Positions 14,210 to 21,064 of a stretch of 41,013 nt of DNA are shown here, in pieces (the stretch's first letter is position 1; every line of letters begins with the position of its first letter). The notes beneath the pieces are model-generated. The model saw nothing but the letters and a program-made list of their open reading frames with translations, searched no databases and was not told where the DNA came from. The stretch comes from Actinomycetota bacterium (lineage in GTDB: Bacteria; Actinomycetota; Actinomycetes; S36-B12; CAIYMF01): contig CANGPO010000017.1 in NCBI GenBank assembly GCA_947455705.1, forward strand, positions 1-41,013. Reading direction: 5' to 3'. The translations under genes and the position numbers were made by a program.

Positions 14210-14264
14210 TCGATACCCACCGCAACGTAAGTGAAAGACAGCCCTCACCCATGAGGGATGACGA

Positions 14265-14301
14265 TGGCCCCGATCGGTTCCTTCCAACCGAGTCGGGGCC
14301 A
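14265..14301. terminator. Bidirectional hairpin between DUF3145 and accD
   Basis: Nine-base arms (TGGCCCCGA / TCGGGGCCA) extend into a second six-base stem (TCGGTT / AACCGA) across one bulged G, with the loop CCTTCC. A smaller hairpin CCCTCA-CCCA-TGAGGG lies just before it at 14242-14257. Both sit in the gap between two convergent genes. There is no clear U tract, as is common in actinobacteria. Confidence 0.6.
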
Positions 14302-14362
14302 ACGCATGTCGTGGTCGCAGTTCGCAGTTCGATGCGCGAGCAGTAGTTTCTTCGCTCAGTAG

Positions 14363-15793
14363 TTACAGCGGGATGTTGCCGTGCTGACCGCGGATTCCCG
14401 GGTTGACCGCAAGTGCATCTGCAACAGCGTGCGCGAGCACCGAACGGGTTTGCGTTGGAGCCACCACCTCGTCGACGACTCCAATCGCTACAGCCTTGTC
14501 GACTCCGCCTGCGATCCGGGTGTGCTCGTCGGCAAGCTCGATTTCTACTTGGGCGCGCGCATCTTCAGGTACCTCGGCGAGTTTGCGTCGATGGAGAATC
14601 CGAATCGCGGCAACTGCACCCATGACGGCGACTTCCGCGCCAGGCCACGCGATGACTTTCGTGGCACCAAGTGCGCGCGAGTTCATCGCGATGTACGCCC
14701 CGCCGTAGGCCTTGCGAGTGATGACGGTGACACGCGGTACGACTGCCTCGGCGAACGCGTGCAGTAATTTGGCGCCGCGACGAACGACTCCATCCCATTC
14801 CTGCCCAACACCGGGCAGGTATCCGGGAACGTCGACAACCACGACGAGAGGTAGACCGAAAGCGTCACACATGCGAACGAAGCGTGCAGCCTTCTCTGCA
14901 CTCGTCGCATCAAGGCAACCACCGAGACGTAGGGGGTTGTTCGCGATCACACCCACCGAACGTCCGCCCAGCCTGCCAAGAGTGGTGATGATGTTGGGCG
15001 CCCACTTGGGATGAAGTTCAAGGGCTGAACCCTCATCGAGGATTCCGTCGACCAGCGGGTGCGCGTCGTAGGCTCGCTTTGGATTCTCCGGTAGCAGAGC
15101 CTCGAGATTTGAATCGGTGACGGCCGATACGTCTAAGTCACGCAGATCGCCCAAGAGCGAGGCAAGACGTGCACCCTCATCGAGGGCATGTCGCTCACTG
15201 GTAGCCACAACGTGGACAACACCGCTACGTCGGCCATGTGGCTCGGGGCCACCGAGGCGCAACATGTCGACGTCTTCACCCGTTACGGAGCGGACGACAT
15301 CTGGACCCGTAACGAAAACCCGGCCCTCCGGCCCAAGGACAACAACGTCCGTGAGCGCTGGTCCGTAGGCGGCACCACCTGCTGCCGGGCCGAGCACGAC
15401 TGAGATCTGCGGGATCTTGCCCGAGACGCGCGTCATGATGGCGAAAACTTCACCGACGGCATGCAGACTCTCGACGCCTTCACGGAGTCGTGCACCACCG
15501 GAGTGCCATAGGCCAACGATGGGTACACCATCTGCGGCCGCCCGGTGATAGGCCACCATGATCGCCTTACAGCCGGCGATTCCCATTGCCCCACCCTGAA
15601 CGGTTGGGTCGGTGCAGAAAACGACGACTGGAGTGCCAAGGGCGGTGCCGGTCGCGGCAATGACCCCGCTGTCATCTACCTCGGTGATGAGCTCCATCGT
15701 GCCCTCGTCGAGGAAGGCTGGCATGCGCACCAGGGGATGGCGAGGATCGAGATCTACAACCTGCACATCATCGTTAGCCACCATGGACATCAC
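14363..15793 (-). CDS. accD: Acyl-CoA carboxylase carboxyltransferase (beta) subunit
   Basis: 476 residues covering both carboxyltransferase halves, as in AccD/PccB proteins. The N-terminal half has GLWHSGGARLREGVESL and GPAAGGAAYGPALTD, the first acyl-CoA/oxyanion region. The C-terminal half has VVVVDVPGYLPGVGQEWDGVVRRGAKLLHAFAEA and the second Gly-rich KAYGGAYIAMNSRALGA. It transfers carboxyl from biotin to acetyl- or propionyl-CoA to make malonyl- or methylmalonyl-CoA. The biotin-bearing alpha subunit must be encoded elsewhere. GTG start overlaps the fabF stop by four bases (GTGA), so it is the last gene of the fab operon. Acyl specificity is not readable by eye. Confidence 0.9.
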   Translation of the reverse strand: MMSMVANDDVQVVDLDPRHPLVRMPAFLDEGTMELITEVDDSGVIAATGTALGTPVVVFCTDPTVQGGAMGIAGCKAIMVAYHRAAADGVPIVGLWHSGGARLREGVESLHAVGEVFAIMTRVSGKIPQISVVLGPAAGGAAYGPALTDVVVLGPEGRVFVTGPDVVRSVTGEDVDMLRLGGPEPHGRRSGVVHVVATSERHALDEGARLASLLGDLRDLDVSAVTDSNLEALLPENPKRAYDAHPLVDGILDEGSALELHPKWAPNIITTLGRLGGRSVGVIANNPLRLGGCLDATSAEKAARFVRMCDAFGLPLVVVVDVPGYLPGVGQEWDGVVRRGAKLLHAFAEAVVPRVTVITRKAYGGAYIAMNSRALGATKVIAWPGAEVAVMGAVAAIRILHRRKLAEVPEDARAQVEIELADEHTRIAGGVDKAVAIGVVDEVVAPTQTRSVLAHAVADALAVNPGIRGQHGNIPL

Positions 15794-17031
15794 ACACTCC
15801 GGAAGATCAGAGCCACGTTGTGGCCACCAAAGCCGAACGAATTGTTCAGCACGACTGCATCCCCATCGCGGAGTTTGCGGGGTTCGCCGCTGACGACATT
15901 AAGACCGATCTCGGGATCGGGATTTTCCAGATTTGCGGTGACGGGGGCAATCCGGTTGTGCAGCGCCAAGATGGCGGCCACTGATTCCACCGCCCCAGCT
16001 CCACCGAGTAGATGGCCCGTCATCGACTTGGTGCCGCTGACTGCGACATCGTCGACGGAGGTTCCGAGGACGGACTTGATGGCCGTGGCCTCAGCGATAT
16101 CACCCTGAGGGGTTGAGGTCGCATGGGCATTGATGTGGATGACATCCGTCGGGCTTGCTCCTGCGCCTTCCAGAGCCAGCCGCATGGCGCGAGCCGCACC
16201 AGCACCTTCGGGATCAGGCTGAGCGATGTGATGTCCATCGGCGGTCATTCCCACCGATGCAACCTCGGCATAGATGCGTGCTCCGCGAGCCGCGGCGTGC
16301 TCGGCTGATTCGAGCACAAGGGCGCCAGCACCCTCACCCATGACGAATCCGTCACGGCCAAGATCGTAGGGACGAGACGCATGCGTCGGATCTTCGTTGC
16401 GGGTGGAGAGTGCGCGCATCGCTGCGAAGGCAGCAATCGTGATGGGGTGAATACAGGCTTCGGTACCACCGGCGACGACGACGTCAGCCCGGCCGCTGCG
16501 GATCATCTCGAGTGCGTAGCCGATTGCTTCGGCTCCCGAGGCGCACGCGCTGACTGGGGTGTGAATACCCGCCTTGGCGCCGAGGTCTAGGCCTACCCAC
16601 GCGGCTGCACCGTTGGGCATGAGTTGCGGGACGGACATGGGTGAAACGCGCGACCAGCCGCGGGCAAGCAGGGTGTCGTAGTTGTCGAGCAGGCTGACGA
16701 TTCCGCCAATACCTGTCGCGAACGCGATGCCGAGGCGTTCAGGGTCGAGGTCGGGTTGTGCTGAATCTGCCCACGCCTCGCGAGCGGCGATGAGGGCGAG
16801 CTGCTGGCAGCGATCAAGTTTGCGAGCTTCAACGCGATCCATGACCTCGAGCGGCTCGACCGCCACCTGACCGGCAAAACGTACCGGTAGGTCGGTGTAG
16901 CGCTCATCTTCAAGCATGCGCACACCTGAGCGACCGCGCAGTAGGCCGGCCCACGTGGTGGCAACATCGCCGCCAACCGGAGTGGTTGCACCCAATCCGG
17001 TGACAACAACTCGACGGGTCGAATCAGTCAT
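15790..17031 (-). CDS. fabF: 3-oxoacyl-[ACP] synthase II
   Basis: 413 residues, the normal KAS II length. The catalytic triad is Cys163 (SACASGAEAIG), His303 (NAHATSTPQGD) and His340 (SMTGHLLGGAGA), and the GGTEACIHP and MGEGAGALVLE segments are intact. It condenses malonyl-ACP with acyl-ACP in fatty-acid elongation. An AAGGGAG site precedes the ATG. It lies between acpP and accD and is separated from acpP by a 13-bp hairpin. Confidence 0.96.
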   Translation of the reverse strand: MTDSTRRVVVTGLGATTPVGGDVATTWAGLLRGRSGVRMLEDERYTDLPVRFAGQVAVEPLEVMDRVEARKLDRCQQLALIAAREAWADSAQPDLDPERLGIAFATGIGGIVSLLDNYDTLLARGWSRVSPMSVPQLMPNGAAAWVGLDLGAKAGIHTPVSACASGAEAIGYALEMIRSGRADVVVAGGTEACIHPITIAAFAAMRALSTRNEDPTHASRPYDLGRDGFVMGEGAGALVLESAEHAAARGARIYAEVASVGMTADGHHIAQPDPEGAGAARAMRLALEGAGASPTDVIHINAHATSTPQGDIAEATAIKSVLGTSVDDVAVSGTKSMTGHLLGGAGAVESVAAILALHNRIAPVTANLENPDPEIGLNVVSGEPRKLRDGDAVVLNNSFGFGGHNVALIFRSV

Positions 17032-17106: not shown

Positions 17107-17340
17107 TCAGGACTGCGCGTCGATGTAAGCAACGGCGTCGCCGACGGTGCGAAGGTTCTTGACCTCGCCGTCGGGGATGCTTACGCCGAACTTGTCTTCA
17201 CATGCCATGACGACCTCGACCATCGACAGCGAGTCGATGTCCAGGTCGTCGACGAAAGACTTCTCAGCGGTGATGTCTTCGATGGGGGTTCCGGCGACCT
17301 CGTTGACGATTGCGGCGAGGCCCTCGAGTGTCTGCGACAC
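17107..17340 (-). CDS. acpP: Acyl carrier protein
   Basis: 77 residues and strongly acidic. Ser37 in DLDIDSLSMVEV is the 4'-phosphopantetheine attachment site. It carries growing acyl chains between FabD, FabH and FabF. GTG start with an AAGGAG site six bases upstream. It is preceded by an unusual repeat-containing spacer after fabH and followed by a hairpin, so its expression may be set apart from that of its neighbours. Confidence 0.97.
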   Translation of the reverse strand: MSQTLEGLAAIVNEVAGTPIEDITAEKSFVDDLDIDSLSMVEVVMACEDKFGVSIPDGEVKNLRTVGDAVAYIDAQS

Positions 17341-17528: not shown

Positions 17529-18530
17529 CTACGGAAGTTCGATAACTTGGGATGCGTAAACCAAGCCAGCGCCAAAACCGATCAGTAGTGCTAGGCCACC
17601 GCTGGGAAGTTGGTCGGCCTGGCGCAGACGATCCAACGCCAGTGGGATGGAAGCCGCAGAGGTGTTGCCGGTTGTCTCGATATCGCGACCAACTACCACG
17701 TGCTCGGGAAGTTTAAGTGCCCGAACCACCGCATCGGTTATGCGCATGTTGGCCTGATGCGGAATGAAGGCCGTCAGGTCGTTCACCGTGACCCCGCTGG
17801 CCTCCAGGGTGCGCATCGCGATCTTCGGAACCTCGCTGACTGCCCAACGGAAAACCTGCTGGCCTGACATCTGCACATAGGGAAACTCGTCGCGAGGCTC
17901 AAGTCGATATTCAGACCACGACTGCGACATCGTGATCAAATCTTTTTGCTCGCCATCGGCACCCCACAGCGTTGGGCCAACACCGGTGTGATCACTCGGG
18001 CCAACCAACGCGGCGCCGGCGCCATCACCGAAGATGAACGCAGTGCCACGATCAGTCGGTGAAACGAAGTCGGTAAATTTCTCAACACCGATCACCAATA
18101 CGTACTCTGCAGCACCTGATCGGATCATCGAATCTGCAAGTCCAAGTGAGTAACAAAAGCCCGCACAAGCTGCGCCGAGATCGGCGCCGGCGGCGTTTAT
18201 GGCTCCGAGTCGGAAGGCAACTTCAGGTGCGGCGGCGGGGGTTTGGTAGGGGTGGGTAACCGTCGCGACCAAGACCATGGAGATGAGTTCCGGGGCAATC
18301 CCGGATTTGGCGATCGCTTTGGCGCCAGCCGCTACTGCCATATCGGTAACGCTTTCACCGGGTGCGCAACGTCGCCGCTCGACAATGCCGCTCCGCTCGC
18401 GAATCCACTCATCTGAGGAGTCGATCAATCCCGCCACGTCGTCATTGGTGACGATCTGGTCAGGCCGATAGGAGCCAGTGCTCAGTACACGACTGCCGAC
18501 CCGGACCGGTACGGAATTCAGCGTTGGCAC
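17529..18530 (-). CDS. fabH: 3-oxoacyl-[ACP] synthase III
   Basis: 333 residues from the GTG at 18530, whose G is also the last base of the fabD stop region (TAGTG overlap). The catalytic triad is Cys122 (GAACAGFCYSLG), His258 (IPHQANMRI) and Asn289 (TTGNTSAASIP). It starts fatty-acid synthesis by condensing acyl-CoA with malonyl-ACP. The frame is open a further 25 codons upstream, but those lie inside fabD and do not resemble FabH. Primer preference (acetyl or branched) cannot be judged by eye. Confidence 0.95.
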   Translation of the reverse strand: MPTLNSVPVRVGSRVLSTGSYRPDQIVTNDDVAGLIDSSDEWIRERSGIVERRRCAPGESVTDMAVAAGAKAIAKSGIAPELISMVLVATVTHPYQTPAAAPEVAFRLGAINAAGADLGAACAGFCYSLGLADSMIRSGAAEYVLVIGVEKFTDFVSPTDRGTAFIFGDGAGAALVGPSDHTGVGPTLWGADGEQKDLITMSQSWSEYRLEPRDEFPYVQMSGQQVFRWAVSEVPKIAMRTLEASGVTVNDLTAFIPHQANMRITDAVVRALKLPEHVVVGRDIETTGNTSAASIPLALDRLRQADQLPSGGLALLIGFGAGLVYASQVIELP

Positions 18531-19714
18531 TAGTTCACCGCAATCGGGTGGAGACGAACAATGGGCTGGCCAGGTGAAACGGGATCGCCATCTTCGACGA
18601 GCCACTCGACGATCGTGCCGCCGTGTGGCGCCAAGATCTGCTGTTCATCACGCAGGTTCACCACAGACCCAATGGGTGCGCCAGCGACCAAGGCATCACC
18701 GGACTCTGAATCAACAGCCAGTTTGAAGGTGCCCTTGCTCGGTGAAACGAGCAGTCGCCACGTTGGTGATTGTGCGGTCGGGCTCAGCGTCCTGTGGCGA
18801 TCGATCAAATCCCATGCCGCTTCGAGGTCATCGGGGGTGTTGAGTGCCAACGTTTCGATGCCGGGGAGCCCGCGCTTGGCCAAGCCCGTGAGGGTGCCGC
18901 CCGGAACAAGTTCGATAAGTGCCGTGACGCCCAAGTCAGCCATCGTGTTCATACAAAGGTCCCAGCGGACCGGGCTACTAACCTGCGTCACAAGACGGGT
19001 CAGCACCTCGCGGCCACTGTGCACGACTGCTCCGTCGGCGTTACTCAGAAGGCGCATGCGGGTGTCGTGAACGTAGATGGAGCGAGCGAGCGCACCGAGG
19101 GTTTGGACGGCAGGTGCCATATGTGAGGTGTGGAACGCGCCGGCGACCTGAAGCGGGCGCAGGCGGGCCTTCTCCGGTGGGTTGGCAGCGAACGCCTCGA
19201 GTTGTTCGAGGGTGCCGGCGACGACGATCTGGCCAGCGCCGTTTTCGTTTGCGGCGGTGAGGCCTACGCGTTCGGCAGCGGCCACGACCTCATCGCGATC
19301 CCCGCCGAGAACTGCCGTCATGCCGGTGGCCGTGACGGCCGACGCGGCAGCCATCGCGTTACCGCGCTCGCGAACGAAGACCATGGCCTGCTCAGCAGTC
19401 ATGACACCGGCACCGACAGCCGCGGTAATCTCGCCGACGCTGTGCCCAGCGCCGACGCCGACCTTGCCGTATGCCTCGGCGGGGTGGGGGAACAGTGACA
19501 GCAAAGTGACCAAGCCAGCTCCGACGAGGAGTGGTTGTGCAACCGCTGTGTCGCGAATCGTGTCCGCGTCACTCTCGGTGCCGTGCTTGACCAGATCGAT
19601 CCCCGCGACCGTGGATAGCCAGCGCAGGCGCTCGTGGAATCCGGGCAATTCCAGCCATGGGGTGATGAATCCTGGGGTCTGTGATCCCTGTCCGGGAGCG
19701 ACTACTGCAAGCAC
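18530..19714 (-). CDS. fabD: Malonyl-CoA:ACP transacylase with C-terminal biotinyl/lipoyl-like domain
   Basis: 394 residues, whereas a usual FabD has about 310. The transacylase part (about 1-305) has PGQGSQTPGF, the active Ser92 in GHSVGE, Arg115 in RERG and His195 in FHTSHM. After a linker, residues about 317-394 (TWRLLVSPSKGTF to VRLHP) look like a biotin/lipoyl-carrier beta-sandwich. The second half (APHGGTIVEWLVEDGDPVSPGQP) is very BCCP-like, but the carrier Lys position holds Arg355, so it is unlikely to be biotinylated. The start is chosen as GTG at 19714 (VLAVVAPGQG) because GGAGAGG lies eight bases upstream; a TTG at 19735 would add seven residues. First gene of the fab operon. Confidence 0.92.
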   Translation of the reverse strand: MLAVVAPGQGSQTPGFITPWLELPGFHERLRWLSTVAGIDLVKHGTESDADTIRDTAVAQPLLVGAGLVTLLSLFPHPAEAYGKVGVGAGHSVGEITAAVGAGVMTAEQAMVFVRERGNAMAAASAVTATGMTAVLGGDRDEVVAAAERVGLTAANENGAGQIVVAGTLEQLEAFAANPPEKARLRPLQVAGAFHTSHMAPAVQTLGALARSIYVHDTRMRLLSNADGAVVHSGREVLTRLVTQVSSPVRWDLCMNTMADLGVTALIELVPGGTLTGLAKRGLPGIETLALNTPDDLEAAWDLIDRHRTLSPTAQSPTWRLLVSPSKGTFKLAVDSESGDALVAGAPIGSVVNLRDEQQILAPHGGTIVEWLVEDGDPVSPGQPIVRLHPIAVN

Positions 19715-19780: not shown

Positions 19781-19799
19781 TTTGTAGGAATCCTACAAA
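19781..19799. promoter_or_regulatory. Perfect 19-bp palindrome, candidate FasR operator
   Basis: Nine-base arms TTTGTAGGA and TCCTACAAA flank a single A. The centre at 19790 is about 41 bases upstream of the inferred fabD start site, the position typical of activator sites that overlap the -35 region. It overlaps the fasR stop codon. FasR of Streptomyces coelicolor is known to activate the fabD operon; assigning this palindrome to FasR is inference. Confidence 0.5.
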
Positions 19800-20959
19800 G
19801 GCACATCGCGCCCATGTAGTCGTCCGAGGGTCATCGCGACCTGTAACGTCCACGCATCGCGCGGCATCGTGGGGGTATAGCCGGTCACATCGGCGACCCG
19901 GCGCAGTCGGTAGCGCACAGTGTTGGGGTGAACGAACAAATCACGGGCGGCACCCTCAAGTGATCCTGCCCGTTCCAGGTAGCAGGACAGTGTCTCAAGC
20001 AGGGTCGGATCCTCGGCCACCAACGATGCGTACGCCCCGTCAACGAGGCGATGGGTAGCGGCCTCGTCACCGGCCAAGGCGCGCTCGGGCAGCAAGTCGT
20101 CAGCGCTCACCGGTCGCGGGGCATCAGGCCAGCCGCGGGCGGCGCGCAGACCCGACATTGCTTCTTGAGCACTGAGGGCAGCCTCGTGAAGGCCTTCCAC
20201 GCGGCGACCTACGACGATGGGTCCAGCGGCAAACTGGGTGGCCAATACCTTGGCCGCAGCGGCTTCATCTTTCACGTTGCCTGCGACGAGGATCATCCCC
20301 GTGCCCTGCACGCGGGTCAGTGCGTCCAACCGATTGTGACGGGCCACGCGCTTGATGGATTCGCTAATCGCATCGGGGTCACCCTGGGGCGCGGAGCCAG
20401 CCATGACGCATACGCCTGTCACGTTGCCCCAGCCAAGGGCTGCCCCTCGCGAGAGCACAGCATCGTCAACTTCTCCGCGCAAAAGTGCGTCCAACACAAG
20501 GGATTCCAGTCGTGCATCCCATGCGCCACGTGATTCAGCGGCCCGCGCGTACACCTGCGCGGCGGCGAACGCGATCTCACGCGAGTACAACAGAATCGCC
20601 TCGCGGAACCAGACGCGATCGTCATCTCCCACCAGATTGGCCAGATGTTCTTCCACTACAGCGATGGTGGTTCGGACGAGCTCAACGGTTTGTTGCAGTG
20701 ATACGGCTCGAACGAGTTCTCTGGGGGCGGTGGCGAAAACATCCGCGGTGATCGCATTGGCGGCATCTGGATCGCGTACCCATTGAACGAATGCGGCGAT
20801 ACCGGCTTGGGCGACGAGATTCACCCACGACCTATCGCCCGCTGACATGGCTGCGTACCACGGAAGCTCTGCGTCCATGCGTACTGATGCGGCCGTGGCG
20901 AGGTCGCCCGTCGCACGTTCAAGCCGACGGACAGTGGCAGCGCGGCGGCGTGAATTCAC
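19793..20959 (-). CDS. fasR: PucR-family transcriptional regulator, FasR-like activator of fatty-acid genes
   Basis: 388 residues from the GTG at 20959, or 407 from an ATG at 21016. I prefer 20959 because similarity to Streptomyces FasR, as I remember it, begins just after it (RRLERATGDLA, MDAELPWYAAM) and a TATCGT box lies seven bases upstream. The C-terminal 60 residues are a PucR-type helix-turn-helix (HTH_30): SLEGAARDLFVHPNTVRYRLRRVADVTGY. The middle is a GGDEF-like PucR regulatory region with no catalytic motif. Position and orientation just before fabD are those of FasR in Streptomyces. It probably senses fatty-acid status and activates the fab operon. Confidence 0.88.
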   Translation of the reverse strand: MNSRRRAATVRRLERATGDLATAASVRMDAELPWYAAMSAGDRSWVNLVAQAGIAAFVQWVRDPDAANAITADVFATAPRELVRAVSLQQTVELVRTTIAVVEEHLANLVGDDDRVWFREAILLYSREIAFAAAQVYARAAESRGAWDARLESLVLDALLRGEVDDAVLSRGAALGWGNVTGVCVMAGSAPQGDPDAISESIKRVARHNRLDALTRVQGTGMILVAGNVKDEAAAAKVLATQFAAGPIVVGRRVEGLHEAALSAQEAMSGLRAARGWPDAPRPVSADDLLPERALAGDEAATHRLVDGAYASLVAEDPTLLETLSCYLERAGSLEGAARDLFVHPNTVRYRLRRVADVTGYTPTMPRDAWTLQVAMTLGRLHGRDVPL

Positions 20960-21064
20960 GTGGCCAACGATAGTGCCGCCGGGCCGAGTTCCGGCAGTTG
21001 CGTGCTGGCTCGGCATTGGTGGAACTCAACAATCCACGGTGCCTTTGCCGGGTGGGTACTCGCG

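Follow-up and report, generated by a model that had tools for sequence, protein, structure and literature searches.

Organization of the fab operon

The window, that is, the whole 41,013-nucleotide stretch of DNA that was analyzed, carries a fatty-acid synthesis operon in the order fasR-fabD-fabH-acpP-fabF-accD (Table 1), and the regulator upstream of fabD is the one that we take to be FasR. The fabD gene has a GTG start and encodes 394 amino acids; the true start of fabH probably lies near position 18530, directly after fabD. Just downstream of accD (14250-14380), a GC-rich inverted repeat was seen by eye and is perhaps the operon terminator. Frames of 811-822 amino acids in three genomes (G003, G006, and G008) looked like FasR-FabD fusions and were rejected, as inspection of loci L072 (G006) and L074 (G008) showed that the upstream portion is GC-rich DNA read in the wrong frame, which yields an Arg-rich sequence.

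Table 1. Features of the fab operon, with positions in the window
Feature	Position	Strand	Basis
PucR/FasR-like regulator gene, upstream of fabD	19793..21016	-	Pfam HTH_30, E 1e-19
fabD	18530..19714	-	
FabD core, residues 1-310, malonyl-CoA:ACP transacylase, GHSVGE motif	18785..19714	-	Pfam/NCBIfam/PDB/Foldseek matches
Variable linker part, residues 311-316, core/tail junction	18767..18784	-	low pLDDT, poor conservation
Pseudo-carrier tail, residues 317-390, biotinyl/lipoyl-type beta sandwich	18545..18766	-	Pfam, PDB sequence search, AlphaFold fold match
Arg355 codon, at place of biotinyl/lipoyl Lys	18650..18652	-	alignments
fabH, longest ORF	17529..18605	-	Pfam
acpP, acyl carrier protein	17107..17340	-	Pfam PF00550, E 6e-15
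fabF, beta-ketoacyl-ACP synthase II	15790..17031	-	Pfam
accD, AccD6-type acyl-CoA carboxyltransferase, overlaps fabF end; proposed tail partner	14363..15793	-	phmmer, start/stop overlap

In a phmmer comparison, the operon AccD matched M. tuberculosis AccD6 at E 2.8e-186 (623 bits) and the next family, PccB, at E 3.2e-118 (399 bits); accD is therefore of the AccD6 type rather than the PccB/AccD5 type. Mycobacterial AccD6 is reported as an acetyl-CoA carboxyltransferase (PMC5311964, PMC4949712), and by analogy acetyl-CoA is a putative substrate of the operon AccD.

Structure of the FabD core and tail

The FabD core possesses the acyl transferase fold and the GHSxG active-site motif of the FabD class, as judged by profile and structure. 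Its best NCBIfam match is fabD (TIGR00128; E 1.8e-51, 175 bits against an equivalog cut-off of 261 bits for this model), and it also matches Pfam Acyl_transf_1 (E 4.3e-12). The nearest PDB relative by sequence search is the Streptomyces-type FabD 1nm2, over residues 2-308, and the predicted model superimposes on 1nm2 with a Foldseek E of 8e-44 and an rmsd of 1.3 over 308 columns. By these matches the core is an ordinary malonyl-CoA:ACP transacylase, with malonyl transfer as its predicted activity. The full-length, single-chain AlphaFold model has a mean pLDDT of 91.6 and a pTM of 0.79; the pLDDT drops to 57 in residues 311-320, which fits a flexible linker between the core and the tail in the model. 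In an AlphaFold model of the tail, the body blocks have a pLDDT of 90-96.

The tail alone matches PF00364 (Biotin_lipoyl) with an E of 2.8e-5 and 24.3 bits, above the cut-off of 22.1, and within the whole FabD protein the same match scores 20.4, slightly under the cut-off. A scan of 40 homologous tails gave a PF00364 match at E <= 0.01 for every one, with a best value of 1.3e-13. In a PDB sequence search of the tail, biotin carriers rank first (best 1dcz, E 1.1e-4). The best fold match of the tail model is the biotinyl domain of E. coli BCCP (1bdo; Z 12.7, rmsd 2.3, 74 residues), closely followed by the lipoyl domains 9a5h (Z 11.4) and 1iyu (Z 10.7); because the lipoyl scores lie so near the biotinyl ones, the fold alone does not settle a BCCP or a lipoyl ancestry. 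The preliminary description of a complete FabD followed by about 75 residues resembling a biotin/lipoyl domain is thus borne out by the match of the core to 1nm2 and by the beta sandwich of residues 317-390, and the Pfam and AlphaFold checks both place the tail with PF00364 and its fold.

Arg355 replaces the carrier Lys

Carrier domains are modified at the hairpin. The genome of the window holds four other PF00364 matches, which comprise a biotin carboxylase-BCCP protein, a 102-residue carrier, and two lipoyl domains in one frame; alignment shows Lys at the hairpin residue in all four and Arg355 in FabD, in agreement with the position first assigned to this Arg by ungapped alignment with BCCP. 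A stand-alone 102-residue biotin/lipoyl carrier of this genome (L004, contig C3) contains an LESMKME motif, and its neighboring frames resemble, by eye, an HD-domain protein and a PilT/GspE-like ATPase.

We aligned the tails of 156 proteins, which gave 136 distinct tails. At the carrier position, Arg is found in 126, Ser in three, Gln and Asp in two each, Thr, Gly, and Leu in one each, and Lys in none; four of the ten tails without Arg at this position (L150, L169, L170, and L171) have an Arg at the preceding residue. The loss of Lys extends to the homologues, a point that the preliminary description had raised for checking, with Arg being usual at this position and not obligatory. Since the modified Lys is absent from the hairpin tip, the tail is related to carriers without being a typical one. 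It is extremely improbable that the tail is still modified on a different Lys: Lys327, in a PxKGTF motif, is common enough among the tails (87%) to be considered, but it lies away from the hairpin, and the carrier position itself holds Lys in 0/136.

Nine residues of the tail (Trp319, Arg320, Gly328, Glu370, Trp371, Asp377, Gly382, Arg387, and Pro390) are kept in 96-100% of the 136 tails, which suggests selection, and the most constant residues are situated outside the hairpin. One locus (L203, genome G252) has a shrunken tail, which keeps its start and second half but has lost the segment bearing the carrier hairpin; this locus still has accD.

Distribution of the tail

A tail-profile scan of genome contigs was used to collect relatives, and the best 80 of 447 were kept. 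The FabD start motif is present in 77 of these 80 loci, the other three (L075, L100, and L101) being cut by a contig end. The best 80 of 447 include loci from Nanopelagicales MAGs, Nocardioides, Kribbella, Actinopolymorpha, and a Jiangellales MAG, together with two congeners of the window (L070 and L073, Candidatus Nanopelagicales). In the order of the window, the profile matched at E <= 1e-3 in 137/166 genomes; many of the weaker matches listed there lie in other frames (e.g., of 588-747 amino acids) and look like ordinary carrier domains. On the spread of such transacylase fusions, a question raised in the preliminary description, we examined 79 genomes of the class picked for diversity and not for estimating a frequency, of which 27 carry a tailed FabD, 51 a tail-less one, and one the shrunken form. 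The tail is widespread but patchy within one actinobacterial class. In a phylum-wide sample in which 16 candidates per genome were scored, the profile matched at E <= 1e-12 in 5/346 genomes, all of the window's class, which suggests that the tail is rare outside it.

Several loci and genomes deserve separate mention. Four contigs titled Bifidobacterium breve (L088, L096, L137, and L145; metagenome bins) carry a tailed fab operon resembling those of freshwater actinobacterial MAGs, and this label looks wrong. In Kribbella jiaozuonensis, the fab operon occurs on two scaffolds (L133 and L135) with equal gene positions and rounded identities, as after a recent duplication or an assembly repeat. 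In two genomes of the window's family (G012 and G015, with completeness of 85% and 78%), an ordinary FabD was not seen, and an acyltransferase-like match lies in frames of 1863 and 1884 amino acids, perhaps type I synthases.

Co-occurrence of the tail and operonic accD

In 71 of the 80 named tailed loci accD follows fabF, and in the other nine the contig stops before a complete fabF. The operon regions compared came from the 79 diversity-picked genomes and from a second set, in which 60 genomes of three families were chosen by tail state when their accD state was not known. In every row scored as lacking accD, the sequence extends at least 2.3 kb past fabF. The accD and fabH labels were typed from tables and then derived anew by script, which gave the same accD state throughout and the same eight rows lacking fabH. 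In the family-chosen set, none of the 34 tail-less regions shows accD (L273 ends early and is unscored) and 24 of the 26 tailed regions have it. Altogether, 149 rows were scored: 63 with both tail and accD, 67 with neither, 15 with accD only, and four with the tail only. Eleven of the 160 tree rows are unscored, namely seven tailed and three tail-less rows in which accD is not visible and the shrunken tail of L203; the tree omits the 5'-truncated L225 (tail and accD), a second stretch of G028 (L224) was unused, and one operon is counted twice (as L147 and L107).

The same contrast recurs at shallow taxonomic levels. Rows with both and with neither number 7 and 8 in family f28, 12 and 14 in f32, and 1 and 2 in f30; family f37 has 10 with both, 19 with neither, and two with the tail only, and f27 has two of each of both, neither, and accD only. 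Within genus g106, G339 and G575 have both and G496 and G624 neither, and genera such as g152, g159, g203, g124, g224, and g71 contain the contrast as well.

We counted independent contrasts on the supported branches of a tree built from FabD cores, leaving out the tail. Of eight such contrasts, a mean of 6.8 changed in the same way, 0.0 in the opposite way, and 1.2 showed no difference, with a median p of 0.0156 (range 0.008-0.07) and the same result without the L147/L107 duplicate. An earlier test on a smaller tree (90 rows) did not reach significance (median p 0.125), and the sample was enlarged after it with rows picked by tail state. As a control, fabH gave 0.4 same, 0.1 opposite, and 7.5 without difference on the same contrasts, at low power because fabH is absent in only eight rows. 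The tree is unrooted, so that gain and loss of the tail are not formally distinguished.

It could be argued that the tail merely stabilizes or orients FabD or aids ACP binding, and that tail and accD change together because whole operons are replaced or reshuffled. The location of both within one operon and the long branches of some tail-less FabDs speak for this explanation. However, tail-less cores are nested inside tailed clades (G391, G202, and G496/G383), the joint change holds on the tree of FabD cores, the low-power fabH control does not track the tail, and none of the 22 tail-less genomes described below carries an AccD6-type gene at another site in its assembly; we regard this explanation as unlikely.

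The tail follows the AccD6-type gene

A genome-wide search with the window AccD was carried out in 35 genomes (22 tail-less and 13 tailed). None of the 22 tail-less genomes, which were picked from those without operonic accD, has an AccD6-type gene elsewhere in the assembly, as the best matches reach <= 48% identity; for comparison, an AccD paralogue on contig C40 is 48% identical, and AccD6-type genes adjoining tail-less FabDs in other genomes are 54-66% identical to the window AccD. Nine of the 13 tailed genomes have a carboxyltransferase at 69-100% identity. G242, with a tail and no operonic accD, has a 58% AccD at another place in its genome. No AccD6-type gene is present in the tailed genomes G539 and G556, and both of their tails have lost the hairpin Arg; G181 (98% complete) retains an intact-looking tail without such a gene and is a clean exception. 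It is thus the AccD6 gene itself, and not its place, that the tail follows, with one clear exception (G181).

The dependence is one-sided, as AccD6-type genes occur without the tail in 15/149 rows. M. tuberculosis likewise combines AccD6 with a tail-less FabD of about 300 residues (2qc3), and together these cases indicate that AccD6 does not need the tail. For the tie to the operon accD that was originally proposed, the repeated joint presence and absence supports a functional link, of which docking and channeling would be the putative mechanism; the tail-less accD rows, G181, and M. tuberculosis speak against a strict need. We also looked for a docking site on AccD among residues that differ between tailed and tail-less sequences (Arg179, Arg188, Arg189, and others), and we propose no site from these, since the 63 and 15 sequences are split by kinship.

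The co-distribution points to a gene and not to a contact, and the partner of the tail might accordingly be another part lost together with AccD6, such as a biotin carboxylase/BCCP subunit, an epsilon subunit, or a biotin ligase. AccD6 is, however, the sole carboxylase gene of the operon, and we hold such a partner to be highly unlikely. A brake is conceivable as well, in which the pseudo-carrier, with Arg for the biotinyl-Lys, would act as a decoy in the seat where AccD6 receives BCCP and throttle carboxylation according to the FabD level. The shared fold, the link to AccD6, and the Arg at the Lys position in 126/136 tails agree with it, as does the absence of this Arg in 3/4 tailed rows without operonic accD versus 4/63 with it (Fisher p 0.003; hand-counted, kinship ignored). 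Yet an Arg stands one residue earlier in one of those three and three of those four, the Arg is replaced in some tails despite the presence of accD, and the strongest conservation of the tail lies outside the hairpin; a brake therefore appears quite unlikely.

A proposed FabD-AccD6 coupling module

We consider it fairly probable that the tail is a retired domain of the biotin-carrier type without its carrier Lys, kept as a module that couples FabD to AccD6. This reading follows from the combination of a kept carrier fold, an absent modified residue, conservation of other faces, and absence of the tail where AccD6 is absent. In such an arrangement, the tail would hang from FabD on the flexible linker and bind AccD6, either as the oligomer or within the AccA-AccD6 holoenzyme. 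The contact would probably lie on or close to the surface where the true BCCP is received, and malonyl-CoA might then be made beside the enzyme that loads ACP. More tentatively, and with somewhat less than even confidence, the two enzymes may form an ACC-FabD metabolon, in which the pseudo-BCCP takes up the BCCP seat of the AccD6 oligomer, or a place next to it, and malonyl-CoA passes directly from carboxyltransferase to transacylase.

Bacterial type II fatty-acid synthesis is not known to couple the committed carboxylation step physically to malonyl loading. A lysine-less FabD domain that tracks one carboxyltransferase offers a defined, removable part for probing this coupling and, if the reading is correct, would clearly exemplify how a swinging-arm domain can become a module for docking or regulation.

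Comparison with known systems

Among the literature matches listed, judged by title and the start of the abstract, we found no published description of a FabD fused to a lysine-less pseudo-carrier. The FabDs of Streptomyces (1nm2) and M. tuberculosis (2qc3) share the core fold and are 59% and 48% identical to the window FabD when matched by structure, but these proteins, of 317 and 303 residues, cover it only over residues 2-308 and 2-299, respectively, and have no tail. The mycobacterial FAS-II locus encodes the AccD6 carboxyltransferase (PMC5311964, PMC4949712), and the window operon encodes one of this type, whereas the FabD of M. tuberculosis is tail-less; the f9 operons, taken as mycobacterial from their layout, lack both the tail and fabH. 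Mycobacterial FAS-II complexes are described with a FabD-containing core, and the parts of these reports considered do not mention a FabD-AccD6 contact (PMC4949712, PMC3245277). The multidomain ACC of Saccharopolyspora (PMC6491548) is likewise an actinobacterial rearrangement of malonyl-CoA supply, but there the carboxylase parts are joined to one another and not to FabD. Compared with the BCCP biotinyl domain (1bdo; PF00364), the FabD tail adopts the same beta sandwich and matches in sequence above the cut-off when taken alone; in contrast to BCCP, its carrier Lys is replaced, the EAMKM-type motif is gone, and the domain is fused to FabD.
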